Positions 47,057-64,000 of a stretch of 64,000 nucleotides of DNA are shown piece after piece. The first letter of the stretch is position 1. Each line of letters opens with the position of its first letter. The notes beneath the pieces are model-generated. The model saw only the letters and a list, made by a program, of their open reading frames with translations, was not told the origin of the DNA and ran no database searches. Position numbers and translations under genes: made by a program. This DNA comes from Pelotomaculum isophthalicicum JI. GTDB lineage: Bacteria > Bacillota > Desulfotomaculia > Desulfotomaculales > Pelotomaculaceae. The stretch covers positions 1 to 64,000 of the forward strand of contig NZ_JAKOAV010000011.1 of NCBI RefSeq assembly GCF_029478095.1, written 5' to 3'.

Positions 47057-47093
47057 TTGCAACATGTATTATATTATGGTAATATAATATTAC
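47057..47093 (+). promoter_or_regulatory. promoter/operator of the XRE-ImmA-PIN operon
   Basis: TTGCAA (47057-47062), 17-bp spacer, TAATAT (47080-47085). A perfect palindrome, arms TATTATATTA (47067-47076) and TAATATAATA (47080-47089), covers the spacer and -10 box. A second one, GTAATATAATATTAC (47079-47093), overlaps it. These are the likely binding sites of the XRE protein encoded just downstream. Confidence 0.7.
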
Positions 47094-47113
47094 ATAGGAG
47101 GGGAGGATTTTCA

Positions 47114-47479
47114 ATGAAAAGGAGAGTACCGACGTTCTCTGAAATCGGCGCCAGGATCAGGGAATTGCGCGAAAAACATGGCATGTCCCAAGATCAATTA
47201 GCCACTGAACTAGGGCTTTCGCGACCTGTTGTGACCAAAATCGAAGGCGGCAAAAAAGCCATCAACAGCTTGGAACTTCGGCAAATTGCAGATATTTTGG
47301 GCGTCTCAACTGATCTATTGATGGATATAGGAGAAGAAGATGAGGAAACCCTTGTTGGACGTTTCCGCGCCAGGCAAAAAAGCGATGATAAGATGTTGGT
47401 GGAATCTGTGGAGCAAATAGAGCACATTTTCAAAGAAATATTGGGCCAGATAAAATTGTGGAGGCAGTCAAATGGCTAA
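47114..47479 (+). CDS. XRE-family regulator
   Basis: 121 residues from ATG 47114, preceded by AGGAGGGGAGG; the earlier frame from 47006 is upstream DNA. One HTH_XRE domain (about 8-65: IRELREKHGMSQDQLATELG, RPVVTKIEGGKK), then an acidic linker (GEEDEETLVG) and a C-terminal helix. It overlaps the ImmA-like gene by eight bases. As the first gene of an operon with a palindromic operator, it probably represses itself, like the antitoxin/regulator of ImmA-linked modules. Confidence 0.85.
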   Translation: MKRRVPTFSEIGARIRELREKHGMSQDQLATELGLSRPVVTKIEGGKKAINSLELRQIADILGVSTDLLMDIGEEDEETLVGRFRARQKSDDKMLVESVEQIEHIFKEILGQIKLWRQSNG

Positions 47480-48263
47480 GATAGGCAGCAAAAAGAGAAA
47501 AGAACTGGAATTAATCGCACAGGATCGCGCCAGCGAACTACGCCGCTCGTGGGGCCTTGGCATTGAGCCAGTATCGGATATCTTTGAATTGATCGAACGC
47601 AGGATAAAGAACGTCATCGTACTGCGTTACCCCGCTCCAAGCTCTGATTTATCCGCATTTGTTTCGCTGAGCGGGGATGACTGTTTAGTTTATATCAACA
47701 CGACTATGCCTTACGGTCATCAGATTTTTTCTGCTGCCCATGAACTCAGTCATATTCTCTATGACAAAGAACATCTGAAATTATTGGTTTGCCGGCCCGG
47801 CGAGGACTCGGAAGATGAAAGAGAAGTGTTGGCAGACCTGTTTGCCGGTGCCCTTTTATTGCCTGCCGAGGGTGTGCGCCACTTTTACTATTCGATATTT
47901 AGCTCCAAGCACCGTGTAACATACGGCACGGTCATGGCCCTACAGGGTACCTTCAAAGTCAGCTATGCAGCTATGCTATATGCATTATTGAAAAATGGAA
48001 TCATTACACCAAAAATATACGGCCATTTAAAAAAAATGGGGGCTAAAGATAATATATCACAGATGCAGCAACTCGCCCGAAGGTACGGGGTGATGGACCT
48101 GATTACCCCGTCTTGTAACAAAGTCATTCCCAAGAGCCTGATTCTTGCCTTAAACTCAAACTATAAGGAGGGTCTAATCAGCTTTAAAAAATTAAGTAGT
48201 GTACTAGCACTCTGGGACCAAGAACCAGAAGAAATGGGATTTGCCTATGAAGATCCTGTCTAG
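47472..48263 (+). CDS. ImmA/IrrE-family metallopeptidase
   Basis: 263 residues. Zinc-peptidase motif HELSHILYDKEH (about 92-103) with a downstream glutamate in EREVLADLFAGALLLP. N-terminal RASELRRSWGLGIEPVSDIFEL is typical of the family, and the C-terminal part adds helices (MLYALLKNGIITPKIYGHLKK). These proteases usually cleave the XRE partner in response to a signal. It overlaps both neighbours, forming a tight operon with the XRE gene and the PIN gene. Confidence 0.87.
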   Translation: MAKIGSKKRKELELIAQDRASELRRSWGLGIEPVSDIFELIERRIKNVIVLRYPAPSSDLSAFVSLSGDDCLVYINTTMPYGHQIFSAAHELSHILYDKEHLKLLVCRPGEDSEDEREVLADLFAGALLLPAEGVRHFYYSIFSSKHRVTYGTVMALQGTFKVSYAAMLYALLKNGIITPKIYGHLKKMGAKDNISQMQQLARRYGVMDLITPSCNKVIPKSLILALNSNYKEGLISFKKLSSVLALWDQEPEEMGFAYEDPV

Positions 48264-48819
48264 CCGAGTTGCCGTAAGCGACGCAGATGTAATGATAAAA
48301 CTATATAAGGCCGGGAGTTTAAGCCTCTTGGGAGACATTTTTTCGGAAGTAATCGTTCCAGGTAAAGTTTACGAAGAAGTAACTAGAAAAATTAACAAGC
48401 AAGTTGACGATATTAATTCTCTGCTTGAAAATAAATGGCTTAAAAAAATCACAATCACCGATAGGGAATTCTTAAATGAAGATCAAATCGAACTCATCGG
48501 CATCACAATGCATTCATTTCAGCACGCCTTGGATGACGGGGAGCGTGAAGCTTTTGCATTAGCTAACGAGCTAAATATTTCTATCCTTCTGATTGACGAT
48601 GCATCTGCCAAGCGAATCATCGAACATAATTCCAATGTAAAAGGCCTCTCCCATGTAGAAGTACTTTATTTGGCTATCCTAAAAAAAATCATGACCCCAC
48701 AAGAAGCGGAAAAGGTCTTTGAAAGAATTAACACTGTCGTTACATACCCGATAAAAACCCCGTTCAGCGACTTAATTAGACGGGCTCAAAAGCGGTTTCG
48801 CGAGTTGGGATTGTTATAG
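48247..48819 (+). CDS. PIN-like nuclease
   Basis: 190 residues from ATG 48247 (TTG 48241 is also in frame). Acidic residues fit a PIN-like ribonuclease site: VSDADVMIKLYKAG near the N-terminus, VPGKVYEEV, DDGEREAFALANELNISILL and LIDDASAKRIIEH. It overlaps the ImmA-like gene by 17 bp. XRE, ImmA-type protease and a PIN protein in one operon recall a toxin controlled by a regulator/protease pair, so I infer it is an inducible RNase toxin; target unknown. Confidence 0.75.
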   Translation: MKILSSRVAVSDADVMIKLYKAGSLSLLGDIFSEVIVPGKVYEEVTRKINKQVDDINSLLENKWLKKITITDREFLNEDQIELIGITMHSFQHALDDGEREAFALANELNISILLIDDASAKRIIEHNSNVKGLSHVEVLYLAILKKIMTPQEAEKVFERINTVVTYPIKTPFSDLIRRAQKRFRELGLL

Positions 48820-48881
48820 CTGAACTTAATAATGCTATTTATTCAAATTGATTAAATAGTCACTGAAAGGAGGTGCATCGT

Positions 48882-49049
48882 ATGGCTAAAAACACGGGGC
48901 AGGGCTTCCGCAAGGGCGCCGTTGACGGACGCTCCCAGTTTCAGGCACCCAATGGCAATTGGGTGAAGCGGGACGCTGAAACCGGCCGTTTCATGGACCA
49001 AAAGACCTCTGGTGATTCTCCTTTTAAAGGTGTGCGCAAAGAAAAATAA
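48882..49049 (+). CDS. small conserved protein with GNWVKRD motif
   Basis: 55 residues: ATG start with a perfect AAAGGAGGTG six bases upstream. The sequence (FRKGAVDGRSQFQAPNGNWV, then KRDAETGRFMDQKTSG and PFKGVRKEK) is hydrophilic, with the pattern of a widespread family of small uncharacterised proteins. Its GC content is higher than the preceding operon. It is followed by a strong nested inverted repeat. Confidence 0.7.
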   Translation: MAKNTGQGFRKGAVDGRSQFQAPNGNWVKRDAETGRFMDQKTSGDSPFKGVRKEK

Positions 49050-49053
49050 AAAC

Positions 49054-49142
49054 TAACCTGACCAATCCGGATTTTGACAAGCGTTCCGCAGCCGGCTGTT
49101 GCAGCTCAGGCTGCGGAACAGATAACACTACCTGTCAGGTTA
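49054..49142. repeat. nested inverted repeats after the small gene
   Basis: An outer pair TAACCTGAC (49054-49062) and GTCAGGTTA (49134-49142) encloses an inner perfect 10-bp pair TTCCGCAGCC (49084-49093) and GGCTGCGGAA (49109-49118) with loop GGCTGTTGCAGCTCA. The inner part closely matches the dyad at 44427-44459. There is no T-run, so it is not a classical terminator. Confidence 0.65.
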
Positions 49143-49189
49143 ATATTAAAATGTTACGTTCCTTCTTTTCTTCAGAGGGCCGTAGGTTT

Positions 49190-49570
49190 TTACCCTTCCC
49201 ACCTGGCCTGATATCCCCTTACATCAACATGCACAAAACCCTGACCCGGGTAAATACCGATGCCGTCAAAACCCACATTTTCCGCTATTTCAGCAAGTTC
49301 ATAAACATTCTTTTCATCCGAATAAATATCGGCGGCCATTCCAAAAGTATGGTAGGAGTTTTCAACTCCCCCGCATGCCTTATTATGATCGGCGCAGCGG
49401 TAGCCGGAAGTGATGTAAACAGGAGCGCCCACAACATTGCGCAAGGCTTCAAGCTTGCGCAAAAGTTCAGGGTGAACCAATACCATCTCGCAACAACCGC
49501 AGGCAAACTACTTCGCCTGAAAATGCTCACTTAATTTTTGCCCTTCCTCTGCTGTTTTAACGCAAAGCAT
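49190..49570 (-). pseudogene. M15-type peptidase gene interrupted by an amber codon
   Basis: The frame starts at ATG 49570 (AGGTGA upstream) as MLCVKTAEEGQKLSEHFQAK, meets TAG at 49510-49508 and continues without shift as FACGCCEMVLVHPELL. The catalytic part, ITSGYRCADHNKACGG, TFGMAADIY and FVHVDVRGY, has the H-x6-D and H-x-D zinc ligands of Peptidase_M15_3 (D,D-carboxypeptidase or endolysin type). After the stop a GTG/ATG restart (ATG 49486) would give 98 residues that keep all zinc ligands. GAG to TAG is the simplest explanation; the fragment may still be made. Confidence 0.7.
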
Positions 49571-49582
49571 CAAATCACCTAC

Positions 49583-49765
49583 TTATCCATTGATAATTTT
49601 GCTGATTTCTTCTACCTCGATCCCGCTTTGCTTAGCTACTACGATAGTCAGCGAGTTAATACTCTTTTGCAAATCTTTGATAATCGGCTCCAGCCTTACA
49701 AGCAAATATCCGGCTACTACCATCGGAAAACCGTAATTGGCTGTGAGCTTTAAGATATCTTCCAC
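49583..49765 (-). CDS. YvrJ-family protein
   Basis: 60 residues. One membrane helix near the N-terminus (LTANYGFPMVVAGYLLVRLE) followed by an amphipathic helix (SINSLTIVVAKQSG), the pattern of the YvrJ family. The family is small and uncharacterised, often beside DUF2922, DUF1659 and cell-wall hydrolases in Firmicutes, as here. A holin-like role is a guess based on topology and neighbours. Confidence 0.8.
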   Translation of the reverse strand: MEDILKLTANYGFPMVVAGYLLVRLEPIIKDLQKSINSLTIVVAKQSGIEVEEISKIING

Positions 49766-49879
49766 AGATTCATCCCCCTTTCAACTAACGTAATACTGGA
49801 TATAAGGCTATCCTTGCGGAAAAAGGGAGGAATAATCCCCCCTTTCGTCTATTTAACAAGATTCAATTCTACAGTGCTT

Positions 49880-50107
49880 TTAAGCAGGTGTATAAAGGTC
49901 CGTAGTGGTTGTTTCAATAATCTTCGCATCTAATTTACTTACCAAATCTCCACCGGAAGAGGTAAAAATGTTTCTCGCGATGATCAGATCCATAGCGGTT
50001 GTGATCGTTGCTTCAGTAAGATCATCCTTTGGATTATCAAGGCTGATAGTAACGGTTTTACCTTCCATATTCTTAAAGCCCATTCGAAGGGTTTTAGTTG
50101 TCGCCAA
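49880..50107 (-). CDS. DUF2922 protein
   Basis: 75 residues: KTLRMGFKNMEGKTVTISLD, LTEATITTAMDLIIARNIF and LVSKLDAKIIETTTTDLY match the DUF2922 pattern. No membrane segment or catalytic motif. It lies between DUF1659 and YvrJ on the minus strand, the usual trio order, so it is probably cotranscribed. ATG start at 50107. Function unknown. Confidence 0.85.
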   Translation of the reverse strand: MATTKTLRMGFKNMEGKTVTISLDNPKDDLTEATITTAMDLIIARNIFTSSGGDLVSKLDAKIIETTTTDLYTPA

Positions 50108-50157
50108 TGGTTTTCCACCTCTATTCTTTTAAAAATTTCCTTACCGGTATAGCTTAA

Positions 50158-50382
50158 TTAAACATTGACCAATTGGGCGTTATCCACTCTGCTTATGCTG
50201 TTTAGCGGGTAGTTCTGCAGATTGGCAAGGGAAGTGGCCACATCATAAATATCTTGATCCGAAGCGGTCGATTTTACGCTGTTCAGACTTTTATCCCGTA
50301 ATATCGGATTACCGCTGCCACTCGTCCCAGTTCTTAATTCGAGCCTAATGATGGAATTATTGGGGACTTTATTTACCGCCAT
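50158..50382 (-). CDS. DUF1659 protein
   Basis: 74 residues: SIIRLELRTGTSGSGNPILR, DKSLNSVKSTASDQDIYDVA and LANLQNYPLNSISRVDNAQL fit DUF1659. First gene of the minus-strand operon with DUF2922, YvrJ and the M15 peptidase. The ATG start at 50382 has GAAAGGGGGAA upstream. Its leader carries two hairpins. Function unknown; no signal peptide. Confidence 0.85.
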   Translation of the reverse strand: MAVNKVPNNSIIRLELRTGTSGSGNPILRDKSLNSVKSTASDQDIYDVATSLANLQNYPLNSISRVDNAQLVNV

Positions 50383-50407
50383 ATTCTTTTTCCCCCTTTC
50401 TTTTTTG

Positions 50408-50511
50408 AGCGGGCTCCGACCGGTAAGCAGGAGCCCGCCCGTAGAAAAATAAAAAGACCGGCAAGATTTACCGGTCAGTAATATTTTAAATTACGTACAT
50501 ATGTTTGTCAA
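50408..50511 (-). promoter_or_regulatory. promoter and structured leader of the DUF1659 operon
   Basis: Minus strand: TTGACA (50511-50506), 17-bp spacer, TAAAAT (50488-50483). Transcription should start near 50476, immediately at a terminator-like hairpin (GACCGG/CCGGTC, 50476-50456) followed by T5-A-T5 (50455-50445). A second hairpin (GGGCTCC...GGAGCCC, about 50437-50410) follows, then the ribosome binding site. This looks like an attenuator. Confidence 0.6.
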
Positions 50512-50832
50512 TAGTGACTTTTATGGTAGTATTTATTTTTACTTGTTTATATTGAATGGCAAAAGCAACACCGTCACTTTTTAAAAATTATTAAGAAATA
50601 TTTTTTGCATTATGACAACCAGATATCAATAGGAAAGATATAAAATAAGTGGTAAGCTTATAGTTTTAATGAAAAACCTGTGCTGTTATCCTGTCATCGT
50701 CAGACATAATACTGTTTTGGTAATAAAAAAGCAGGAAATTGTTATAGGTTTATACAATATTAACAATAGATTTTTAATCCTAACAAACTGGTAGACTATT
50801 AAATACAAAAAAATGTAAGCAGGTGCATAGTA
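50512..50832. other. intergenic region before the BREX operon
   Basis: AT-rich, no gene seen on either strand. It must hold the BREX promoter. AGGTG at 50821-50825 is the only ribosome binding site, about eight bases before TTG 50833. Confidence 0.4.
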
Positions 50833-51429
50833 TTGCAACAATATTCGGCTGCTTTTACGTCTGAGTGGTTGCTGCAAAACGAAATGAGAATTTTCCTGAG
50901 GCTCGAACGAGAAGGAAAGAGCCCGGTTGAAATACGAGCACAAGTGATAGAGGAAAACCTTTTTCGGATGAAGCGTCAAAACACTATCATCGCCGCGTTA
51001 AAAGTAATAAACCGCAGGCTGCGTTTCCTGGACCCGGTATTACGTCGGATGTTTTTAGAAAACCAGCGCCATGACCGGTTAGCCGTTTTGCTTTACTCCT
51101 TCCTAAAGAGTTACCGTTTGCCGCGTGAGTTTGTCCTGGAGATATTGCGCCATCACTGGCTGAACCATAAAAATCGTCTGCCCGCGGGCGAAGTAGTCAG
51201 TTTCTTTGAATATAAAGGAGAGCAAAGCCAAATAGTCGCCGACTGGTCGCCAGAAACCAAAAAGAAATTGCGGCAGGTCATGCTGCGTTTCCTGACCGAG
51301 TGCGGCCTGCTGCAGTCGCAAAACGATTACTGGCTTATTACCCCTGTACTGCTTGGCGCTGAATTACGGGCTTTTGTTGATACTGAGCCAAAATACAATG
51401 ATTTTACAGCCCTTATGTTAAATGCTTAG
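50833..51429 (+). CDS. brxA: BREX protein BrxA (DUF1819)
   Basis: 198 residues, the usual BrxA length. DUF1819 pattern: YSAAFTSEWLLQNEMRIFLR at the start, NTIIAALKVINRRLRFLDP, FVLEILRHHWLNH and KLRQVMLRFLTECGLL. BrxA is a small, partly DNA-binding BREX component, structurally related to NusB. TTG start. First gene of a plus-strand island in which all genes follow with short gaps. Confidence 0.9.
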   Translation: MQQYSAAFTSEWLLQNEMRIFLRLEREGKSPVEIRAQVIEENLFRMKRQNTIIAALKVINRRLRFLDPVLRRMFLENQRHDRLAVLLYSFLKSYRLPREFVLEILRHHWLNHKNRLPAGEVVSFFEYKGEQSQIVADWSPETKKKLRQVMLRFLTECGLLQSQNDYWLITPVLLGAELRAFVDTEPKYNDFTALMLNA

Positions 51430-51449
51430 GAAGAGAGGGGAGCTTCAAA

Positions 51450-52007
51450 GTGGATGAGCTGCAAAAACGGATGGATCATTTTACCGACTATATCCAGCAG
51501 CCGCATTTTCTCGAAAAGAAGGGACTGGGCAATGAAATTCCTTACTTTATATTCGATTACGCCCCCGAGAAAGAATTGGCCGTCCGTTCCTTTATCCAGT
51601 ATGTCAAAAGCAGAGTGAAATTGAAAATCATTGAAATAAACCTATATCAGTTGCTTCTGGAGCTGTATGAGCAGGACGTGGGTATCGAAACACTGCTGGA
51701 AATGGAAGCCGGGGAAGGGACAGCCGAGCTTTTTGACGCGCTTCAGCCGACGCTGGAAGGCGAAAAATTTGCTCAGGCAATTGCCCAAAAGGCTCAGGGC
51801 GCGGATGTCCTGTTTCTCACCGGTGTAGGCAGCATTTACCCGATGATGCGCTCCCATAACATTTTAAATCGCCTGCACCAGTATATGACGGACATACCGG
51901 TGGTCATGTTCTACCCGGGGAATTATAACGGCTCGGAACTTAGCCTGTTTAACATTTATAAGGACGATAACTACTACCGCGCTTTTCGCATCGAGCCTGC
52001 CAAATAG
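51450..52007 (+). CDS. brxB: BREX protein BrxB (DUF1788)
   Basis: 185 residues. DUF1788 pattern: NEIPYFIFDYAPEKELAVRS, LKIIEINLYQLLLELYEQ, VLFLTGVGSIYPMMRSHNIL and PVVMFYPGNYNGSELSLFNI. The role in BREX is not settled. GTG start with GAGGGGAG upstream, 20 bp after brxA. It is followed by a 65-bp gap of A/G-rich repeats (AATAGAGATAGAGATAGAAAT). Confidence 0.92.
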   Translation: MDELQKRMDHFTDYIQQPHFLEKKGLGNEIPYFIFDYAPEKELAVRSFIQYVKSRVKLKIIEINLYQLLLELYEQDVGIETLLEMEAGEGTAELFDALQPTLEGEKFAQAIAQKAQGADVLFLTGVGSIYPMMRSHNILNRLHQYMTDIPVVMFYPGNYNGSELSLFNIYKDDNYYRAFRIEPAK

Positions 52008-52072
52008 AAATAAATAGAGATAGAGATAGAAATAAAAATAAGGATTTGCAATAGTAATAGGGGTGATTATTT

Positions 52073-55000
52073 TTGAAAATTAAAGACTTATTCCAGAAAA
52101 GTATCCGGCGGAATATCAATGGAGTGATCCAGGCCGGACAGCTCGACGAAGAATCCATTTACACGGAATTGGACGAGTATGTCGTTACCGATGAACTGGC
52201 AGGTAATTTAGAAACTTTTTATAGCCATTATGCGGCCGCGCTGAGCGAGCCGACAAGCAAAATGGGCGTGTGGATTTCCGGGTTCTTTGGTTCCGGTAAA
52301 TCTCATTTGCTAAAAATATTATCTTATCTATTAAGCAACTGTACTGTAAAAGGCAAAAGGGCGGTAGATTTTTTTCGGGACAAAGACATCCGCCCGGAAT
52401 TGCTTAATCTTATCTTTACCGCTGCCTCTGTGGAAAGCGACGCGCTGCTGTTTAACATCGACTCTAAAAGCGCCACCGGCTCGAAGAATGAAAAGCAGAA
52501 AATCGTTGATGTTTTCCTGAAAGTTTTTAACGAGCACCTGGGTTACTCCAGCATGGCCTGGATCGCCGGGATCGAGCGCCATCTGGAACGGGAAGGCCGG
52601 TACGGGGAGTTTAAAGCCGCCTTTGCCCAAAATAGCGGCAAGTCATGGGAAGAGTCCCGCGACTATATCTTGCTTAAACAAAAAGATTTCTTCCGGGCCA
52701 TGCAGGCTATCGGCTATGATGAGGAGGCGTCTAAAACTTTCCTGAAAGGGATGAAAGACACCTTTGAAATAACTTCCGAAGACCTGGCCAAACTCATCGC
52801 CGGTTACTGCCGGAAGCGGGGAAAAGACTACCGCCTGGTTTTCCTGGTGGATGAAATCGGCCAGTACATCGGCGATAACCGGGAACTCATGCTCAACCTG
52901 CAGACCGTTGTGGAAGACCTGGGTAACTATGCGCAAGGCCGGGTCTGGGTGATAGTCACTTCCCAGGAGAAAATCGACGCCGTGACCAAAGTGCGCGGGG
53001 AGGATTTCTCCAAGATCCAGGGACGGTTCTCCACCCGCTTGAACCTTTCCAGCGCCAACACGGACGAGGTCATCAAACGGCGCCTGCTGGCCAAAACAGA
53101 GGTGGCCGGACAAACCCTGCAGCTTGATTACGAGGTTAGGGAGCAATCCCTGCGCAATATGCTGTCCTTCGACGGCAATACCGGCGCCTTGCGCTCGGGC
53201 TACAAGTCTGCCGCAGACTTTGTTGCCGGCTACCCCTTTGTGCCCTATCAGTTCGACCTCCTGCAAAAAGTATTTGATAAAATCCGCATCCAGGGCGAGG
53301 CCGGCAAACACCTGTCCCGTGGTGAGCGCTCACTTTTAAACGCCTTTCAGGAAGTAGCGCTTTTGCTGGGAGAAGAGGATACCGGCCGCCTGGCCACCTT
53401 CGCCCAGTTTTATGGAACGCTGGAAAGCTTTCTGGATACCTCGGTCAAGAGCACGATCCGCAAGGCTAAAGACAAGGACGGAATAGCGCCCTTTGATCTC
53501 GATGTGCTGCGGACTCTCTATATGATTAAAGGCATCGAGGGCTTTCCGGCCAGTCTGGAGAACATCACCACGCTGCTTCTTAATAGTGTGGACGCGATTA
53601 AAAACGAAATAGAACGGCAGGTTTCACGGGCGCTGGATAAGTTGATCCGTCATGTGCTTATTCAGCAGAATGCCGATCAGACATACACCTTCCTGAGTGA
53701 TGAAGAGCAGGAGATCAACCAGGAGATCAAAAACACTACCCTTGACCAGGCCAAAGTTTTGCAAGACATGACCAAAGTATTTTTTAACGAGATCTACCCG
53801 CAGACACGCTACCGCCACGCGAGCGGCCGCGATTTTGACTTTAACCGGCGGTTTGACAGCTATACCCTGGGAGTGGCCCAGCATCCCCTGACCCTGCAGT
53901 TGTACTCGGAACCCATCCCGGAGATGGAAGCCATGCTTAAGGCCACCAACGGAGTCCTGGTCGTGCGCCTGCCGGAAGACGGGCCCAATTTTAGCGAGCC
54001 CTTTGAATACGCCGTTAAAATCGCCGGCTATCTAAACCGCAAAAGTTCGGTAAACCTGACCAAAACTCAGGAAAGAGTTATTGAGCAGAAGCGCGGTGAG
54101 ATCAGTGAATTTGAGGGAATAGGCCGGGAAGCGCTAAAAGAAGCGAGCCGCCGGGCCACGTTTTACATTGAGGGGCAATCATACACCTTTAACGGTGAAC
54201 CGGCGGCGCAGATTGACCGGGCCTTTGAGATCCTGGTACGTAATACCTTTACCAAGCATCATTATATCGATCATAAAATTGAATTGAAAAACGCCGCCCA
54301 GCAGATTAAAGAATGGGCGACAAAAGGCATTCAACAGCGTCTTGACGGAACGCTGCCCAATCAGTTGGCCCTGGATGAAGTCATGCGCTACCTGGAAGAA
54401 CAGCAAGGAAAATATGCGCGTCCGACCATGAAGGCCATTGTGGAGCGTTTTACGGGCGTCCCTTACGGCTGGACGGACTGGGACCTGGCCGGCATCGTTA
54501 CAATATTGCTATATGAAGGAAAGGTTAAGCTGTCCTATCTGGGTGAGCGGTTTAATACTACTCATCCCGAATTCGTTTCCCGCCTGACCAAGACCACCGA
54601 GCGGGAAAAGGTCGTTGTGGAACTTGAGGTGGCGATTCCCACCGATGTTCGCAAAAAATTAAGCGGCATCATGCGTGAATACTTTGGCCGGCAAACTTTG
54701 GGGGACACCTATGAAGAAGTGGCTGGTGTGATTCGCGCCAGGGTGGAGGAGCAGATGCAGGCGCCCCTCCGGGAAATCCAGCAGCGGCGGCGGCAGGAGT
54801 CTTTAGAGTTCCCTTACCCCGGGTCTAGTGATATTTTGCATTTGGAGAGAACGGTGGAAGCCCTGCTGTCCAGAAAAGATGACGAGCAATTAATTAAAGA
54901 GTTGTTTGACCTGGAGGACCAGTTGGATGAATGGTTTGACCAGCTGGAAGACCTGAAGTCGTTTTACCTCGGCAAGGCCATTGAGCACTTTGACGGAGCT

Positions 55001-55618
55001 GTGAAGGCGCTCCGGCAAAGAAAGACAGATTTGCAAAGCGCCGTTGGAAATATTGAACTACAAACGATCAAGCACGAAATTGAGACTATCTTGCGTCATA
55101 AAGAACCCTACAAGCAGATCAGCCAATTGCCCATTTTACTACAGCGGCTGAATGACGGCCTGCGGCAGGTACTGGATGAACAGCGGCGGACATACATGCC
55201 TGAATTGGAGAGCATCCAGTCAGTGGTGGCGGATATGACGGAGCAGTACAGCGCCGACCCCGAAATCGAATCTATTATCAAGCAAGGGCAAAATAACATT
55301 GACCAGCAAATTCGCCAGTACCGGGAGACCGACAGCATTACCCAGCTTATCGCCGTGCCCACCCTGGCCAAGAACGCGCTGGAGCAGATAAAATCGCAGA
55401 TCCAGTATACTTTGCAAAAACGAAAGCCGAAGCCCTCTGCCGGCGATACTCCCGTTAAAAGTAAAAAGGTGTTGTCCGGCCTAGACCTGCTGACTCTTGC
55501 TCTAACCGCGCCGGTAGTAGAAATAGAAAATGAAGAGGAACTAAACAAGGTGATTGAAGGTCTGCGTAATCAATTGCGTCAACTGATGAAAGACAATATC
55601 CTTGTCCTGCGCAGATAG
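52073..55618 (+). CDS. brxC: BREX ATPase BrxC
   Basis: 1181 residues. P-loop ATPase, Walker A GFFGSGKSHLLK (about 69-80), Walker B-like YRLVFLVDEIGQYIG (about 253), ATPase sensor GRVWVIVTSQEK. Long coiled coils in the C-terminal third (about 930-1130). BrxC is an essential AAA+ protein of BREX, needed for both host methylation and phage restriction. TTG start at 52073 with AGGGGTGA upstream. No second brxC/pglY copy is seen, which argues against classical type 5. Confidence 0.92.
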   Translation: MKIKDLFQKSIRRNINGVIQAGQLDEESIYTELDEYVVTDELAGNLETFYSHYAAALSEPTSKMGVWISGFFGSGKSHLLKILSYLLSNCTVKGKRAVDFFRDKDIRPELLNLIFTAASVESDALLFNIDSKSATGSKNEKQKIVDVFLKVFNEHLGYSSMAWIAGIERHLEREGRYGEFKAAFAQNSGKSWEESRDYILLKQKDFFRAMQAIGYDEEASKTFLKGMKDTFEITSEDLAKLIAGYCRKRGKDYRLVFLVDEIGQYIGDNRELMLNLQTVVEDLGNYAQGRVWVIVTSQEKIDAVTKVRGEDFSKIQGRFSTRLNLSSANTDEVIKRRLLAKTEVAGQTLQLDYEVREQSLRNMLSFDGNTGALRSGYKSAADFVAGYPFVPYQFDLLQKVFDKIRIQGEAGKHLSRGERSLLNAFQEVALLLGEEDTGRLATFAQFYGTLESFLDTSVKSTIRKAKDKDGIAPFDLDVLRTLYMIKGIEGFPASLENITTLLLNSVDAIKNEIERQVSRALDKLIRHVLIQQNADQTYTFLSDEEQEINQEIKNTTLDQAKVLQDMTKVFFNEIYPQTRYRHASGRDFDFNRRFDSYTLGVAQHPLTLQLYSEPIPEMEAMLKATNGVLVVRLPEDGPNFSEPFEYAVKIAGYLNRKSSVNLTKTQERVIEQKRGEISEFEGIGREALKEASRRATFYIEGQSYTFNGEPAAQIDRAFEILVRNTFTKHHYIDHKIELKNAAQQIKEWATKGIQQRLDGTLPNQLALDEVMRYLEEQQGKYARPTMKAIVERFTGVPYGWTDWDLAGIVTILLYEGKVKLSYLGERFNTTHPEFVSRLTKTTEREKVVVELEVAIPTDVRKKLSGIMREYFGRQTLGDTYEEVAGVIRARVEEQMQAPLREIQQRRRQESLEFPYPGSSDILHLERTVEALLSRKDDEQLIKELFDLEDQLDEWFDQLEDLKSFYLGKAIEHFDGAVKALRQRKTDLQSAVGNIELQTIKHEIETILRHKEPYKQISQLPILLQRLNDGLRQVLDEQRRTYMPELESIQSVVADMTEQYSADPEIESIIKQGQNNIDQQIRQYRETDSITQLIAVPTLAKNALEQIKSQIQYTLQKRKPKPSAGDTPVKSKKVLSGLDLLTLALTAPVVEIENEEELNKVIEGLRNQLRQLMKDNILVLRR

Positions 55619-55645
55619 AAATAAATGGCCGGGAGGAACTGATAA

Positions 55646-58600
55646 GTGAATAAGACCGCAATTAAAAACGTGGCCACATATGCCCGGAAAGAGCTGATCA
55701 GCCAGGTGGCTTTGCGGGCGCAGAGCTTCGGCATCACCCCGAAAGGCCCGGGGGAAATAGAAGTTGGAAGCGATTATGTAATCATTAACAGTCAACGCTA
55801 TCCCAAGAGCTTTGAAAGACCCTATAAAACATTACAAAAGGAAATTGAAAAAAAGGGTTTTCAACAGGTAGTGGAGGAAGTGGCCTACACCTGGTTCAAC
55901 CGCTTTGTCGCCCTACGCTTTATGGAAGTGAACGACTACCTACCTTCCAAAATCCGCGTTCTTTCCAGTCAAACGCCGGGCAAGGTGGACCCTGATGTCC
56001 TGACCATGTACCGGGAGTTGGACTTTCCTTTTGAAGAATCTTTCGTACAGGAAAAAATGCAAAAGGGGGATAACGAGGCTGCCTTTCGCCATTTGCTGAT
56101 CGCCCAGTGTAACCAACTAAGCCGGATCATGCCTTTTTTATTTGAAAAGATTAACGACTATACCGAGTTACTAATACCCGCGCCGCTATTACATACTGAT
56201 TCAGTGATTAGCCGTTTGGTTAGTGAAATTGATGAAGATGATTTTAGGGAAGTAGAGATTATCGGGTGGATGTACCAGTATTACATTTCAGAAAAGCAGA
56301 AACAGATAGTAGGCATGAACAAAGGCACTGTGGCGAAGGAAGACCTGCCTGCGGCTACACAGTTGTTTACACCTAAGTGGATTGTCCAGTACATGGTGCA
56401 AAACTCCCTGGGTAAGCTATGGCACGATCATAATCCGGAATGCAGCTTGATCGAAAAATGGGAATATTATCTACACGCCAAAAGTAAAAGCATTAGTGCT
56501 TCCGAGTATCTTGAGCTCGAAAGCATAAAAATCCTTGATCCGGCCTGCGGCTCCGGTCACATCCTGGTATATGCCTTTGATCTGCTCTATGACATGTATG
56601 AGTCTCAAGGCTATCCTGCCAGGGAAATACCGGCTTTAATACTCACCCAAAATCTCTATGGGCTGGATATTGATAAGCGTGCTGCGCAACTGGCGGGTTT
56701 TGCCCTGCTGATGAAAGCAAGGTCAAAAGACCGTCGGTTGTTCCGGCGGGAAATCAAACTTAATATTTATGATTTTAAAGATGCTGAAACAATATCTGAT
56801 GAAGCCCTTGAGTGTTTTTGCAAGAATGAGAATGAGATAAAGGAAATCAAAGAGCTGGTTAAGCAGTTTTCTAACGCTAAAAGTTTCGGGTCACTTATTG
56901 TGCCTCCAGACCTTGATTATGAGGACTATCTACGTCGGCTGGAAGGTTTGGATGAAGGAGTGGAAGATTTATTTGAACGTAGAAAAGTGGAAGAACTAAA
57001 AGAAAAGCTAATTCCACTATTCACCCAGGCAAGTATTCTCTCGAAAAAATATCACGTTGTTGTGACCAACCCGCCGTACCACAACAAGTACAACCCGGAG
57101 ATGAAAAAGTTTATCCAGGAGCACTATGCAGACTATAAGGCTGATCTTTACTCGGCATTTATTTACCGTTGTACCAGAATGACGCTTCCTTATGGTTATT
57201 GTGGTATGATGTCACCTTATACATGGATGTTTATTACCACTCATGAAAAACTACGTCTATATATTATTAATAACCAGAGTATTTCTAGTTTGATACAACT
57301 TGAATATTCAGCTTTTGAAGAAGCTACCGTACCTATTTGCACCTTTGTGATCCAGAACCATAGTGGGCATATAATTGGGGAATTTATTCGTCTTACTGAA
57401 TTCCGGGGAGCGGAGCTACAGCCGGTAAAAGTGCAGGAAGCTGTACTAGATTTGGGTGTTCCTTATCGGTATGTCTTCGACAGTAGGAGCTTTCCAGATA
57501 TCCCCGGTTCTCCCATTGCCTATTGGTCATCGGAACGAGTACGGCGAATTTTTAGGGAGAATCCAAAGTTGGGAGCTGTTGCAGAACCAAGAGTTGGATT
57601 ACAAACAGGTGATAACGATCGTTTCCTTCGACTTTGGTATGAAGTATTATTTACTTGTATTGGATTTGCATTAAAGAATAGAGAAAGTGCAAAAGAAATC
57701 AAATTAAGGTGGTTTCCTTACAACAAGGGAGGTTCATTTAGGAAATGGTATGGGAATCAAGAATACATAATAAATTGGGAAAACGATGGAAAAGAAATTA
57801 GGGATTTCAAACCATCAGTAATTCGTAATCAAGATTATTATTTTCGTAAAGGGATTACCTGGTCTGATGTTAGTTCGAGCTATTTTGGTGTAAGATTTTT
57901 ACCACAAGGGTTTTTATTTGATGTTTCTGGTTCTATGGCTTTCCCTCTAAATGGAGATATTGAATTCTTCTTAGGCTTACTTTGTTCAAAAATTTCGGTG
58001 GCTAAACTTAAAATATTAAATGCTACTCTACATTTTCAAGTTGGTGATATAAAAAGAATACCTGTTATTTATCAAAATAGCTCTTCCATTAGCAAATTAG
58101 TTCTAGAGAATGTGTATCTTTCGAAGAATGACTGGAACTCCTTCGAAACATCTTGGGACTTCGAACTCCATCCATTCTTAACCTATCAAAAGGACACATG
58201 TCTTATTAACCAGGCTTTCCAAAACTGGGCAGACCACGCTGAAACCCAGTTCCGCCAACTACAGGCCAACGAAGAAGAACTAAACCGCATCTTCATCAAA
58301 ATATACGGCCTGGAGGACGAACTTACTCCGGAAGTTCCCGATGAAGAAATCACCGTGCGCCGGGCCGACCGGGAGCGGGACGCGAAGTCGTTTCTTTCCT
58401 ACGCCATCGGCTGCATGATGGGGCGCTACTCCCTGGATGTACCCGGCTTGGCCTATGCCGGGGGCGAATTTGATTCGTCCAAATACCGGCGCTTCCAGCC
58501 CGACCATGACGGTATCCTGCCTATTACCGATAAGAGTTACTTTGACGACGACATCATGGATCGCCTGGCTGAATTCCTGGAAGTCACTTTCGGTAAAGAG

Positions 58601-59092
58601 ACTCTACAGGAGAATCTCTACTGGCTGGCCGAGTCCTTGACCATGAAGAACAACGAGACGCCGTTGGAACGGCTGCGTCGCTACTTCATGGAGGAGTTCT
58701 ACAAGGATCACTTGAAAATATACCAAAAACGGCCCATCTACTGGCTTTTTGATTCCGGCCGGAAGAAAGGCTTCCGCGCCCTTGTCTACCTCCACCGCTA
58801 CAACCCGCAGACCCTGGCTAAAATGCGCCTGGATTACCTGCAGGAAATGCAAGTCAAGTACGCCAACGAAGAGCAGTTGCTCTTGCAGTGCTTGGAGCAG
58901 CCGGACTTGAGCCGGGCTGAGAAAACGGCGACCAACAAACGCCTGGAAGAAGTGCGGGCCCGGCAGCGGGAACTCATTGATTACGATAAGTTATTGGCGG
59001 ACTACGCCAATCAGCGCATTGCCCTGGATTTAGACGACGGTGTCGTTGCCAATTACGCCAAGCTGCAGCCTCTGCTTTCATCCATAAAGTAA
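55646..59092 (+). CDS. pglX: BREX adenine-specific methyltransferase PglX (BrxX)
   Basis: 1148 residues. SAM-binding motif I DPACGSGHILVYAFDLL (about 296) and catalytic motif IV VVTNPPYHNKY (about 472), of the gamma-type N6-adenine methyltransferases. It marks host DNA at an asymmetric site; the target recognition domain should be residues 600-850. The DNA of that part (about 57600-58150) is clearly AT-richer than the rest of the gene, consistent with a swapped specificity domain. GTG start, 28 bp after brxC. Full length, no interruption. Confidence 0.93.
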   Translation: MNKTAIKNVATYARKELISQVALRAQSFGITPKGPGEIEVGSDYVIINSQRYPKSFERPYKTLQKEIEKKGFQQVVEEVAYTWFNRFVALRFMEVNDYLPSKIRVLSSQTPGKVDPDVLTMYRELDFPFEESFVQEKMQKGDNEAAFRHLLIAQCNQLSRIMPFLFEKINDYTELLIPAPLLHTDSVISRLVSEIDEDDFREVEIIGWMYQYYISEKQKQIVGMNKGTVAKEDLPAATQLFTPKWIVQYMVQNSLGKLWHDHNPECSLIEKWEYYLHAKSKSISASEYLELESIKILDPACGSGHILVYAFDLLYDMYESQGYPAREIPALILTQNLYGLDIDKRAAQLAGFALLMKARSKDRRLFRREIKLNIYDFKDAETISDEALECFCKNENEIKEIKELVKQFSNAKSFGSLIVPPDLDYEDYLRRLEGLDEGVEDLFERRKVEELKEKLIPLFTQASILSKKYHVVVTNPPYHNKYNPEMKKFIQEHYADYKADLYSAFIYRCTRMTLPYGYCGMMSPYTWMFITTHEKLRLYIINNQSISSLIQLEYSAFEEATVPICTFVIQNHSGHIIGEFIRLTEFRGAELQPVKVQEAVLDLGVPYRYVFDSRSFPDIPGSPIAYWSSERVRRIFRENPKLGAVAEPRVGLQTGDNDRFLRLWYEVLFTCIGFALKNRESAKEIKLRWFPYNKGGSFRKWYGNQEYIINWENDGKEIRDFKPSVIRNQDYYFRKGITWSDVSSSYFGVRFLPQGFLFDVSGSMAFPLNGDIEFFLGLLCSKISVAKLKILNATLHFQVGDIKRIPVIYQNSSSISKLVLENVYLSKNDWNSFETSWDFELHPFLTYQKDTCLINQAFQNWADHAETQFRQLQANEEELNRIFIKIYGLEDELTPEVPDEEITVRRADRERDAKSFLSYAIGCMMGRYSLDVPGLAYAGGEFDSSKYRRFQPDHDGILPITDKSYFDDDIMDRLAEFLEVTFGKETLQENLYWLAESLTMKNNETPLERLRRYFMEEFYKDHLKIYQKRPIYWLFDSGRKKGFRALVYLHRYNPQTLAKMRLDYLQEMQVKYANEEQLLLQCLEQPDLSRAEKTATNKRLEEVRARQRELIDYDKLLADYANQRIALDLDDGVVANYAKLQPLLSSIK

Positions 59093-59197
59093 AAAGACCT
59101 TATGTTTTGGGGAAACTATGGCGTAGTCGGTTTATACCGTATGACATTTATCATTCTTGAGAGATGAACAATTCTGGGAGAAGGATATGATTGATAT

Positions 59198-60343
59198 ATG
59201 ATTACCGAAATTCATGTTAAGAACTACCGGAGCCTGGGTGATGTCACCCTTAATTTGGGTAATCTTACTGTATTGGTTGGTCCAAACGGGTCCGGCAAAA
59301 GTAATCTTATCGATGCAATAAGGTTTGTGTCGGAAGCTTTACAACTCGGCCTTGATTCGGCAATCAAGAAGCGGCACGGTATTGCCATGCTTCGTAGGTG
59401 GTCTCCGAAAAAAAATCCTCATGATGTATTAATGGAGTTCAATCTTAAAGGAAATAAAACAGATAATCCTTTTAGTGCGAAATACGGTTTTACACTGAAA
59501 AGTGAAAGAGACGGTCGGATTAGTGTAAAAAAAGAGTACTGCACTGTTAACTGGAGGAAAAAAAATGCTGAATACCTGTATGAGAAAGGTGTTCCAGTCA
59601 AACCGGTGAGTACAGGTTTAACCCCGCCCGTGAATGAAGATTCTTTTGTCCTTAGTGCCATCGGTGGGACAGAGCCGTTTTCTTATGTGCGTTCCGCTCT
59701 TGTGAATACCGGATTCTGTTCAATTTTTCCCGATACCATCCGTTACCCTCAGAATCCGGGTGGAATCGAAATATCACTGGAAGAGCGTGGTTCCAACCTG
59801 GCTGCTATATTAAAAAACATGAAAAAACAGGGCAGCAAGTGGCTGCCGGATATCAAATCGGCTTTAAGTAAGGTTGTTCCCGATATTAAGGATTTCCAGG
59901 TTCAACAAATTGGGGGATATTTGGTCATCAAATTCCTGCATACCGGTCTTAATGAAGATCACTGGTTTGACGTTTCGCAGGAATCGGACGGCACCCTCAG
60001 AGTACTTGGTTTGTTAACGGCTATCTACCACGATCCTTCCATGTCTTTACTTGCTGTGGAGGAACCGGAGCTGACCATTCACCCCGGCGCTCTGGCAGTG
60101 CTTTCGGATATATTATTGGAAGCCGGCACGCGCACCCAATTGTTATTAACCACTCACAGCCCGGACTTGATCAGCCGGCTGCCTGTCGATTCGTTGAGAG
60201 CCGTTGAAAAATTAGACGGTGTTACTTTAATTAATGAGATAGACGAAACGCAGCGCCGGGTTATCGAGCAGCGGCTCTTTTCCGCGGGTGATTTGCTGAG
60301 GCTGGAGGGGTTGAACAGGCGGGCGGACGAGGGGGTGCGGTAG
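59198..60343 (+). CDS. AAA ATPase (RecF/OLD-type) inside the BREX locus
   Basis: 381 residues. Walker A VLVGPNGSGKSNLIDAI (about 30-46), Walker B LLAVEEPELTIHPGAL (about 285), D-loop/switch LLLTTHSPDLISRLP (about 321). It is an ABC-type AAA_21 ATPase, the kind that pairs with a TOPRIM partner in OLD, PARIS and related defence systems. The next gene, one base later, is a DUF4276 (TOPRIM-like) remnant. The pair sits between pglX and pglZ, which is not part of a canonical BREX cluster. ATG start with GAGAAGGA upstream. Confidence 0.85.
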   Translation: MITEIHVKNYRSLGDVTLNLGNLTVLVGPNGSGKSNLIDAIRFVSEALQLGLDSAIKKRHGIAMLRRWSPKKNPHDVLMEFNLKGNKTDNPFSAKYGFTLKSERDGRISVKKEYCTVNWRKKNAEYLYEKGVPVKPVSTGLTPPVNEDSFVLSAIGGTEPFSYVRSALVNTGFCSIFPDTIRYPQNPGGIEISLEERGSNLAAILKNMKKQGSKWLPDIKSALSKVVPDIKDFQVQQIGGYLVIKFLHTGLNEDHWFDVSQESDGTLRVLGLLTAIYHDPSMSLLAVEEPELTIHPGALAVLSDILLEAGTRTQLLLTTHSPDLISRLPVDSLRAVEKLDGVTLINEIDETQRRVIEQRLFSAGDLLRLEGLNRRADEGVR

Positions 60344-60344
60344 G

Positions 60345-60665
60345 ATGGGTGCTATTGTCCCCGTTGTCGAGGGCGACGGCGAGGTGGATGCTGTCCCCAA
60401 GATGCTGGGAGATCGGCCGGGTTTAACCCCTGGGCTTACTTTCGATGATGACCGGATTGAATCGTTAGTTGGAGTGAAGGGCTGGCTAAGCCGTAATTTC
60501 CAAAGTGGCAGGATTTACAAGGAGACTCTGGACCAACTGCCTATGACAAGGATGATTGACCTGGACATTGCTTTGCCAAGATCCAGATCGTTAAGAAGAT
60601 TGGAGCACGCGGTTGTGGAATTGATCGAACACAGAAATGCCGCCTCATTTATTTCACCCTTATGA
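60345..60665 (+). CDS. DUF4276 protein, internally shortened
   Basis: 106 residues, whereas DUF4276 proteins usually have about 200 or more. The start MGAIVPVVEGDGEVDAVPKML is the family N-terminus (TOPRIM-like glutamate). The end GVKGWLSRNFQ, YKETLDQLPMTRMIDLDIAL and RSLRRLEHAVVEL is the family C-terminus. The middle, which should hold the acidic metal residues, is missing, without loss of frame. Start overlaps the end of the ATPase gene region closely (ATG one base after its stop), so the pair was once coupled. Probably inactive. Confidence 0.7.
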   Translation: MGAIVPVVEGDGEVDAVPKMLGDRPGLTPGLTFDDDRIESLVGVKGWLSRNFQSGRIYKETLDQLPMTRMIDLDIALPRSRSLRRLEHAVVELIEHRNAASFISPL

Positions 60666-60705
60666 AATCGAATTGTAATAAAATTATAGTGTATTGATAA
60701 AGTAG

Positions 60706-63243
60706 GTGACTTGCTTGGATGTAATAGACAAGCTAGTTGATCGCTTCCGCACCGGTGATTCGGAGCGGAAGCTGGTCTTTTGGTATGACACCAACCCGGA
60801 GCGGGAGCTGGAACCGGTCCGTGAGGCCTTAAGCGCGCTTGGCGTGGACGTTTGGGAGTTAACCGAAGACAATCAGTTTACTACGAAGTACCAGCTGGAG
60901 GTAGTTGCCCCCAGCCAATCTTACCTGGTCTACGCGCGCTTTCCGGAGCCGGAGCGGAGAAAAAACTGGCTTTTGGATATCCTGCTCTATTCGGAGAAGT
61001 TTGAGGCCGACGACATTGCCGTGCTGATGAGCCGCTTCCATGTGGAGCACCTGGCGGTGCGGGATTTTTTCCAAAAACACCGCCGCTTTTTTAACAGCAA
61101 TGACCGTGCCAAGAGGCTGGAGAGCATTTTACCACCGGAGCCCACCCGGGAGCAATTGACTCTGGGCATGCTGGCAGTATTGGCGGGCACGCTCTCACCC
61201 CAACCCGGCCGGATCATGCGCCAGGTGTTGGTAAAGGGTTTAGACGATGAACATAATAAAGTTTACCAGGATATAGCCAAATTTTTTAATCTTGATGACT
61301 TCTGGAGATTTGTGGCCGATAATTTCGGTTATGAGGCCGAAGAGCCGTCGCTGAAAGAATTATTTAATACCCTTGTGTATAACCATTTTGCCCTGGCGGT
61401 GGACTTTGAACTGCCGCAAGCGCTGGCTGGTTACAAATCCCGGCTTGCCAACAGCTGCCGCATTTTTATCGACGACTGGCTGAGCAGTTCAGGCCAGGCG
61501 GCAGATGTGCTGGCATCCTACTTGAAAGAGCTGCAGACAGAGTGGGGCATTGCCGGTATCCTGGGTAATCAGCCTGTAGAAGCCTATCAGCGCTGTGACA
61601 CTTTCCCGGTGGCTGAAGAATTAATTATTCGCAAGCTGGCGGAAGAGCTCGAACATGAAACAGTCAATCAAGAATTATGGAATGAGATATTAAGCGAGAG
61701 GCGCTCGAAGCACTGGTACAACCGGTATGAGCCTTTGTACCGGCCTCTGGAGGCCGCCCTTCGCCTGGTTAAAACCAGGTTGAGGTTTGAAGGGATGCGG
61801 GCGCCGGCGGACGGCCGGGAATGGGTGGAGATGTACAGCAGTGAATTATACCAGGCCGACCAGCTGGCGCGGCACTTTTTCTGCGGCTACCAGGATGCCC
61901 ACGCGCCCGAAGTGTTGCAGGGACTGGCCATGCGCATCGAGTACTGGTATAATCATGTTTTTCTGGCGAAGATTGCCCTTTGGACAGACCGTCTGCTGGA
62001 TGAATTTTTGCTCAAAAAATGGCCGGTCGGGGGTGTGCCCAGACAGTGGCGTTTTTATCAGGAGCAGATTGAGCCACTGCTCAGGCGTCCATCAGAGCGT
62101 GTATTTGTGATCATCTCTGATGCCCTGCGCTACGAGGCCGGAGCAGAACTGGCTGCGCGGTTAAAAGAGAAACCGAATGTTGAAATTGAATTGAAGCCCA
62201 TGCAGGCGGCTTTACCCGGCTACACCGCCCTGGGCATGGCCGGCCTGCTGCCCGGCGAGAAGCTCTCCTTCCGGGAAAACGGCAACGTTGACTTGGACGG
62301 GCAGCCGACTGTAAGCTTAGCTAACCGGGAAGCGGTTTTGCAAAAGCGTCACCCGGCTTCCCGGGCCAAGAAATTGAAAGAGTTTATGGCTATGCAGACC
62401 AAGGACGCCGCCGCCTGGCTGAAAAACCGGCGGGTAGTCTATTTTTACCACGATATCATTGACTCCACCGGCGACAGTCAGAAATCCGAACTATACACTT
62501 TTCGTGCCGTGGCTGATACGTTGCGCGAGCTGGAGGGAAGTACCGGCAGGCTTTTCGGGACTTACGGGGCGGCCAGGATCATCATTACCAGCGACCACGG
62601 CTTTTTATTTCAATCGGCTCCGCTGGAGCCGACGGAAAAGGCAGAAAGGGTTGAAGGAAAAATATTTTCCGGCAACCGCCGTTTTGCCTTAGGTGTAGGC
62701 CTGTCCGTTCCCGCCGGAGCAAGGAAGCTGTCCTTAGCGTATCTCGGCGTGGAGGAAGAGGCCGTGCTCGCGGCCGGGTTGAACCGCTTCGCGGCCGCGG
62801 GCGGCGCCCGCTTTGTGCATGGCGGGGCTTTGCCCCAGGAAGCCATCCTCCCTTTGATTATTTGCCGGAAACGCGGGGTGAACCGGCGCACCGAACAGAA
62901 GCTGGTGGATGTCCGCCTGGTTAACCGGGAGCGCCTGGTTACTGACTACCGTTACAAGGCAACTTTCTTCCAGGAGCAAAAAGTAGACAACGAGTTCCGC
63001 CCCCGCCACCTGCGGATGGCCTTTTATCAGGGAGACGAGCGGATTTCCAACGAGGTCATACTGGTATTTGATTCCGTGGAAGATGCCGGCCGCCGCCAGG
63101 TGGAAGTATTTTTCTCGTTCCGGGAAAAGAATTATCTCTCCGGTGAGCGTTGTTTACTGCGCTTAGAGGATGTATCCAGCGGCGGGACCAGTCCATACCG
63201 GGAAGAAGAGCTGGAATTGCGTTTATATAACTCAATATTTTAA
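60706..63243 (+). CDS. pglZ: BREX phosphatase-fold protein PglZ
   Basis: 845 residues from GTG 60706; TTG 60715, five bases after AGGTGA, is an equally good start (842). The alkaline-phosphatase-like PglZ domain begins VFVIISDALRYEAGAELAARL (about 466, metal-binding Asp), continues ALPGYTALGMAGLLPGE (nucleophile region) and ARIIITSDHGFLFQ (metal-binding Asp-His) and SVPAGARKLS. PglZ is universal in BREX and needed for both methylation and defence. Full length. Confidence 0.92.
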   Translation: MTCLDVIDKLVDRFRTGDSERKLVFWYDTNPERELEPVREALSALGVDVWELTEDNQFTTKYQLEVVAPSQSYLVYARFPEPERRKNWLLDILLYSEKFEADDIAVLMSRFHVEHLAVRDFFQKHRRFFNSNDRAKRLESILPPEPTREQLTLGMLAVLAGTLSPQPGRIMRQVLVKGLDDEHNKVYQDIAKFFNLDDFWRFVADNFGYEAEEPSLKELFNTLVYNHFALAVDFELPQALAGYKSRLANSCRIFIDDWLSSSGQAADVLASYLKELQTEWGIAGILGNQPVEAYQRCDTFPVAEELIIRKLAEELEHETVNQELWNEILSERRSKHWYNRYEPLYRPLEAALRLVKTRLRFEGMRAPADGREWVEMYSSELYQADQLARHFFCGYQDAHAPEVLQGLAMRIEYWYNHVFLAKIALWTDRLLDEFLLKKWPVGGVPRQWRFYQEQIEPLLRRPSERVFVIISDALRYEAGAELAARLKEKPNVEIELKPMQAALPGYTALGMAGLLPGEKLSFRENGNVDLDGQPTVSLANREAVLQKRHPASRAKKLKEFMAMQTKDAAAWLKNRRVVYFYHDIIDSTGDSQKSELYTFRAVADTLRELEGSTGRLFGTYGAARIIITSDHGFLFQSAPLEPTEKAERVEGKIFSGNRRFALGVGLSVPAGARKLSLAYLGVEEEAVLAAGLNRFAAAGGARFVHGGALPQEAILPLIICRKRGVNRRTEQKLVDVRLVNRERLVTDYRYKATFFQEQKVDNEFRPRHLRMAFYQGDERISNEVILVFDSVEDAGRRQVEVFFSFREKNYLSGERCLLRLEDVSSGGTSPYREEELELRLYNSIF

Positions 63244-63269
63244 AGAAATAGTTATTTGAGGGTTGCCAT

Positions 63270-64000
63270 ATGTTGCGTGCAGGAGAAATTGTCCGTGGAC
63301 CCCAGTGGCCGGAGACGGTGGAAATAAAAAAGTGCGAACCGTCTGCTTTCTGCTTTTACCTGGTGGAAGCGCTGGGCCGGGACACCCGGGCTTACTATGA
63401 AACATTGCTGGAAGAGTTTCAGTTCGGTCTGGTGGAACGGCTGTCAGAAGGCAGGGAAAGGCCTGCCTTAAGTGCCGCTGCCTTTCAGCGATATTTGCAG
63501 TATCTCGCCCTGGAGGAAGAAAGCAAATTCTCTAAGACCAGGGCGCTGGGCAGTCACCAGGTGATCCCGCTGCCCCACCAGATTGAGGCGGTCTACGGCC
63601 GTATGCTGCAGTCGCCCCAGGTACGCTATCTGCTGGCGGATGACCCGGGCGCCGGCAAAACGATTATGGCCGGGATGTTGCTCCGGGAACTCCAGGCCCG
63701 GGGCATGGCGGACCGGATCTTAATCCTGGTCCCGCCTCTGGTGCTGGTGCAATGGCGGGATGAACTTTTAGAAAAATTTAGCCTGGACTTTCAGATCATT
63801 TCCCGGACTACTGTTTCAGAAGCCGGTGGGAAAAATCCTTTTGTGGAATATCCTTTTTGCCTGGCTTCCATCTACTGGGCCTCCAGGGATGATATCACGC
63901 TCCTGGTGCGGGACGCCAGTTTTGACCTGGTTATTGTGGATGAAGCGCACAAGATGGCGGCTTATACCCAGGGCAAGAAAGTGCGCAAAATAAAACGCAC
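63270..64000 (+). CDS. SNF2/DEAH helicase of the BREX locus (partial)
   Basis: The 244 residues visible before the window edge carry an N-terminal domain (residues 1-90), then helicase motif I LADDPGAGKTIMAGMLLREL (about 129-148; Asp replaces the more usual Glu), motif Ia ILVPPLVLVQWRDELL and the DEAH box LVIVDEAHKM. This is a superfamily-2 SNF2-like helicase of the BrxHII/DrmD-type. ATG start with GAGGG upstream, 26 bp after pglZ. The C-terminal half is missing from the window. Confidence 0.82.
   Translation, partial: MLRAGEIVRGPQWPETVEIKKCEPSAFCFYLVEALGRDTRAYYETLLEEFQFGLVERLSEGRERPALSAAAFQRYLQYLALEEESKFSKTRALGSHQVIPLPHQIEAVYGRMLQSPQVRYLLADDPGAGKTIMAGMLLRELQARGMADRILILVPPLVLVQWRDELLEKFSLDFQIISRTTVSEAGGKNPFVEYPFCLASIYWASRDDITLLVRDASFDLVIVDEAHKMAAYTQGKKVRKIKR

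Follow-up and report, generated by a model that had tools for sequence, protein, structure and literature searches.

The locus analyzed here is very probably a phage-exclusion locus of the BREX type, built on a BREX-1 core, in which BrxHII replaces the terminal brxL and a HEC-01 passenger, whose nuclease half is devoid of its predicted core, is lodged between pglX and pglZ. The window, that is, the whole stretch of 64,000 nucleotides under analysis, comprises bases 1-64000 of the 95,472-base contig C11, in a genome of 3.6 Mb for which a MAG, Pelotomaculum sp. PtaB.Bin013, is the nearest match published separately.

All genes of the locus lie on the + strand, in the order brxA-brxB-brxC-pglX-[ATPase + DUF4276]-pglZ-helicase, and the order given in the preliminary description was confirmed, with strands and coordinates, for the seven window genes and the helicase. 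The first gene, brxA (50833..51429), encodes a 198-aa product that matches Pfam BrxA (PF08849) with 148.9 bits over a cut-off of 23 and is also BrxA for PADLOC. It is followed by brxB (51450..52007; 185 aa), with 142.1 bits for PF08747 BrxB and 220.7 bits for PADLOC BrxB. The brxC gene (52073..55618) encodes an ATPase of 1181 aa with the Walker A motif GFFGSGKS and reaches 1103.6 bits with the NCBIfam model NF033441 (BrxC; cut-off 400), while pglX (brxX; 55646..59092) encodes an adenine methyltransferase of 1148 aa with an NPPY motif, which scores 1430.4 bits with the BREX-1 PglX model NF033452 (cut-off 500). Two inserted genes come next: HEC-01A, at 59198..60343, for an ATPase of 381 aa, and a HEC-01B (DUF4276) remnant, at 60345..60665, for 106 aa. 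Downstream, pglZ (brxZ; 60706..63243; 845 aa) matches BREX-1 PglZ type A (TIGR02687) with 619.4 bits over a cut-off of 270, and the helicase gene starts at 63270, runs past the window end at 64000 and is complete at C11:66482 (1070 aa), as the last gene of the operon.

Reading on past position 64,000 detected no brxL, brxD or second brxC between the helicase end and C11:79000, and both brxL and a further brxC are likewise absent from the upstream stretch 46000-50833; the earlier statement that brxL does not follow pglZ and that only one brxC is present is therefore upheld. Downstream of the helicase, a WYL-domain gene in convergent orientation is followed by a gene for a YhaM-like OB/HD protein and by two DEAD helicases that bear zinc domains of the MrfA type. 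Upstream of brxA, at 47006-48819, an operon encodes an XRE regulator, an ImmA/IrrE-like peptidase and a protein of 192 aa, PIN-like by eye but with no Pfam match above the cut-off. The operon resembles a switch of the toxin-antitoxin or prophage type.

Assignment of the first five core genes to type 1 BREX, as previously proposed, rests on the Pfam matches of BrxA and BrxB and on the NCBIfam cut-offs passed by BrxC, PglX and PglZ. The BREX-5 models, in contrast, were missed by both PglX (320.2 bits, cut-off 900) and PglZ (68.3 bits, cut-off 250). As for the helicase, its closest relatives in a sample of 398 genomes of the phylum are 55-58% identical and belong to three loci reading brxF-brxC-pglXI-pglZ-brxA-helicase. 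Other matches in the same sample reach at most 44% identity over part of the length, or about 31-37% over most of it, except for a broken copy in G080, one of the genomes that carry the 55-58% identical helicases. Because the nearest helicases are found in type 3 BREX loci, we consider the window helicase to be BrxHII; the gene had been described as an SNF2-like helicase, which is right, and BrxHII-like is the more exact term. The combination of BREX-1 cut-offs reached, BREX-5 cut-offs missed and a type-3-like helicase leads us to view the locus as a BREX-1 core with BrxHII in the place of BrxL.

A different reading, that the locus is a BREX-DISARM hybrid, has its origin in PADLOC, which labels the helicase DrmD (1218.7 bits) and PglX also DrmMI (1197.6 bits). 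We regard it as extremely unlikely, and rejected it on the grounds of the curated cut-offs and the context of the nearest helicases: the NCBIfam DrmD equivalog is missed (378 bits when 610 are needed), whereas the BREX-1 PglX model is passed by a protein scoring 1430 against a required 500, and the best helicase relatives reside in type 3 BREX loci. Furthermore, drmA, drmB and drmC are absent directly 3' of the helicase.

Two more BREX loci exist in the same genome, one of type 1 on contig C7 and one of type 3 on contig C16. The latter (L006:1-14103) is without BrxHII, and carries a 979-aa TOTE primase-helicase-PLD protein after brxA, which is the place of BrxHII in related loci. At E <= 1e-60, the genome has no BrxHII-like match other than the helicase of the window locus. 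Sequence identities would fit an origin of this BrxHII in the type 3 locus on C16, from which it would have moved, as the C16 core and the window helicase are 49-72% and 55-58% identical, respectively, to the same reference loci.

Type 5 BREX was originally defined by the presence of two brxC/pglY genes. The gene content of the window locus resembles that of the published 'type 5', as BrxHII lies 3' of pglZ and would replace BrxL on a type-1-like core; the resemblance is incomplete, since a single brxC is present in the locus and its flanks, and PglX and PglZ score below the BREX-5 cut-offs. With type 1 BREX (brxA-brxB-brxC-pglX-pglZ-brxL) the locus shares its first five core genes, in the same order and of the type 1 kind, but a BrxHII-like helicase occupies the site of the missing brxL and the HEC-01 pair separates pglX from pglZ. 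With type 3 BREX (brxF-brxC-pglXI-pglZ-brxA-brxHII) it shares only the helicase, as all remaining core genes are of the type 1 kind. BrxHII has been described as a core component of type 3 BREX and also of some of the loci named type 5, in which it takes the place of BrxL; more generally, helicases stand in for BrxL in BREX types 5 and 6, and 'type 5' has been classed as a part of type 1 (PMC12839542). The possibility that the gene order is already a named subtype is largely borne out: BrxHII in lieu of BrxL is 'type 5', and OLD-ABC/TOPRIM modules inside BREX loci have also been published (PMC12839542).

The inserted pair was identified by PADLOC as a HEC-01 candidate system. The HEC-01A ORF is intact, shows a Walker A motif (GPNGSGKS) and matches PDLC04178 with 327.1 bits along almost its whole length and AAA_21 with 109.9 bits; matches to Pfam and to PDB sequences define it as an OLD-like ABC/AAA_21 ATPase. 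A proposal that the genes at 59198 and 60345 might be fragments of another BREX core gene was discarded because they belong to distinct HEC-01 families. In the preliminary description, the pair was viewed as a possible embedded anti-phage module comparable to PARIS and BrxU. The kind was correctly recognized (an OLD-like ATPase with a DUF4276 partner, that is, HEC-01), but it is a known kind and this copy is probably disabled. With PARIS (AriA/AriB) and other BREX-embedded OLD-ABC/TOPRIM modules the pair shares a two-gene design of ATPase and TOPRIM-like protein and a site inside BREX; it differs in that the ATPase is a poor match to AriA (114.8 bits, far under the HEC-01A score), and the second gene is DUF4276-like, damaged, and not AriB, for which PADLOC found no match in the inserted pair. 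The likeness to the HEC-01 system of PADLOC (AAA ATPase + DUF4276) is closer, as the ATPase matches HEC-01A along its length; the difference lies in HEC-01B, which is a deletion remnant.

Evidence for such a deletion came from alignment to intact homologues. HEC-01B relatives that are intact have around 200-217 aa, and the 106-aa ORF of the window has undergone an in-frame internal deletion of 104 codons. No Pfam domain is detected in the ORF, and the PADLOC HEC-01B profile matches its C-terminal part only (residues 37-96, aligned to positions 136-194 of a 197-position profile). The deletion removes 18 of the 44 positions that are invariant among five intact homologues (two Desulfotomaculum copies and three more distant ones), including E115-x-E117 and D81-x-D83, the DxD pair of the presumed TOPRIM site. 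At its N-terminus the remnant still has the VEGxGE motif, and the C-terminal third is also preserved. The gene, earlier described as DUF4276, is a truncated remnant and not an intact gene. An assembly artefact is an unlikely source of the deletion because a second, separately assembled MAG of the same species carries the same remnant with zero differences, on a contig that is 99.88% identical (4 differences in 3347 bp).

On the basis of its acidic motif pattern, DUF4276 is presumed to be a TOPRIM-like nuclease with a DxD site. Structure prediction was of little help: a single-sequence fold of intact HEC-01B had a pLDDT of 45, and the model of the short form was likewise poor. Because the DUF4276 partner has lost the predicted catalytic core, the embedded module is probably non-functional, with loss of its nuclease activity. 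An altered or different function of the shortened protein is unlikely; the idea is kept in mind because the frame has stayed open and the C-terminal part is well conserved with respect to the best relative. Along the same line, one might propose that the pair is a working second-line module in which the short DUF4276 protein still acts as the effector of the ATPase. HEC-01A is indeed intact, with its Walker motifs, the two genes have kept a spacing of 1 bp together with an open frame, and elsewhere HEC-01 is intact and duplicated as a unit of about 2 kb. We nonetheless deem this proposal quite improbable, as the short protein is missing D81, D83, E115 and E117, present in five of five intact homologues.

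Intact HEC-01 pairs are exemplified by Desulfotomaculum sp. BL5_bin.2, which has two copies outside BREX. Their ATPases are 79-80% identical to that of the window, and each is followed by a 217-aa HEC-01B that reaches the DUF4276 cut-off. These cassettes (L059:7733-9873 and L060:6906-9124) are 98.4% identical over 2047 bp and have mostly unrelated flanks, which shows that the two genes of HEC-01 are moved or duplicated together. The best HEC-01A model has matches in 7 of the 398 genomes of the phylum sample, and no BREX genes were found beside the five non-window HEC-01A loci in the stretches examined. Searches for relatives of intact HEC-01B yielded none in viral contigs and three in plasmids, all from Streptomyces. 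A pair formed by a WYL regulator and a YhaM-like gene, 56-59% identical, is present both near HEC-01 (L059:2187-4662) and next to the window BREX locus (L004:6490-8541), with reversed gene order; it is possibly the marker of a shared defence hotspot.

Extra ORFs in the interval between pglX and pglZ are not exclusive to the window locus, as they are found in 8 of the 14 other BREX-1 loci with a readable interval. The cargo includes HEPN with a nucleotidyltransferase, HepT, Schlafen with an ABC-like ATPase, AAA with PD-(D/E)XK, parts of CRISPR type III-C and unknown proteins. The survey for recurrence of the ATPase-DUF4276 pair in this slot gave no further case: HEC-01 was present there in none of the 14 loci, and is therefore rare at this site in our sample. 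Nuclease modules beside or inside BREX-type loci have been reported in at least 4363 taxa, with at least 1242 for those linked to OLD-ABC (Rakesh and Krishnan, PMC12839542). Together with a slot that bears cargo, these published modules make the window arrangement one of a known kind.

The most notable occupant of the slot is found in G150, a genome of the same phylum, where a CRISPR type III-C set (cmr1, cmr6, cas10c, cmr4, cmr5-like and cmr3) occupies, on the same strand, the pglX-pglZ interval of a BREX-1 locus (L095:1681-8913). The phylum sample contains 22 genomes that have Cas10c and 30 that match PglZ, and the two occur together in G150 only. A BREX-1 locus from the window's genus (G398; L090:5686-9260) harbors between pglX and pglZ cmr1, a cmr5-like ORF and cmr3, without cas10 or cmr4, and a partial second pglX 3' end, an arrangement suggestive of a III-C insertion that has decayed. 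Cas10c is absent from the window genome. A contig of a same-species MAG (G495, contig C178; L061:1-5041) carries cas10c-cmr4-cmr5-like-cmr3 and, immediately after them at the contig end, the initial 24 codons of HEC-01A. The end of C178 and the start of contig C303 (hecA-short hecB-pglZ) differ by one mismatch in about 73 bp, and C178 may represent either a strain variant with III-C inside a BREX locus of the window type or a second hecA copy. In another genome of the same family (G410; L084:98-535), the first 122 residues of pglZ, 74% identical to the window's, lie on a contig without other BREX genes of the window, a fragment that we interpret as what is left of a BREX locus after its loss or breakage. 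Because the closest family relative of the window pglZ is such a bare fragment, a clean unoccupied site is not available for comparison.

The gaps around the inserted pair are short (105 bp between pglX and the ATPase, 1 bp between the ATPase and DUF4276, and 40 bp between DUF4276 and pglZ) and, together with the common strand, are compatible with cotranscription with pglX and pglZ. A promoter scan of the gap upstream of the ATPase gave no strong candidate, a result that speaks neither for nor against it. Such an arrangement could also suggest that BREX has recruited HEC-01A, as a sensor or regulator driven by ATP, with short HEC-01B as an adaptor. The position of an intact ATPase between core genes that share its strand and an in-frame deletion common to two MAGs of the species would be in keeping with this idea, but the arrangement is known from one species and recurs in none of the other BREX-1 loci surveyed. 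We give little credit to co-option, and find similarly doubtful a related version of a domesticated passenger, in which the OLD-like ATPase, minus its nuclease core, would now assist, as a sensor or regulator, a BREX machine whose own remodeller was swapped for BrxHII. Between the two MAGs the remnant shows no differences, and against the L059 copy synonymous sites are saturated, so that dN/dS carries no information on selection after the deletion.

Our favored reading is thus a BREX-1 locus with BrxHII and a decaying passenger. From knowledge of the families involved, PglX would place N6-methyladenine on non-palindromic sites of the host, and BrxA, BrxB, BrxC and PglZ would form a complex that recognizes unmarked phage DNA. 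Nuclease activity would come from PglZ (with BrxB), and BrxHII would provide the ATP-driven DNA remodelling that is elsewhere the part of BrxL. By analogy with PARIS, an intact HEC-01 may serve as a second line, in which the ATPase would hold the TOPRIM-like nuclease and release or activate it upon a phage trigger. Since its nuclease half is devoid of the predicted metal-binding core, the window passenger has most likely lost its ability to cut, and BREX alone would then be at work in the locus.

The locus illustrates BREX modularity clearly: its core is of type 1, its helicase resembles that of type 3, and its pglX-pglZ slot holds a defence passenger that is decaying. It also carries a caution: a profile match to a two-gene passenger is no proof that the passenger works. 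A more useful lead for surveys is the pglX-pglZ slot itself, where related loci harbor HEPN, Schlafen and CRISPR type III-C cargo.
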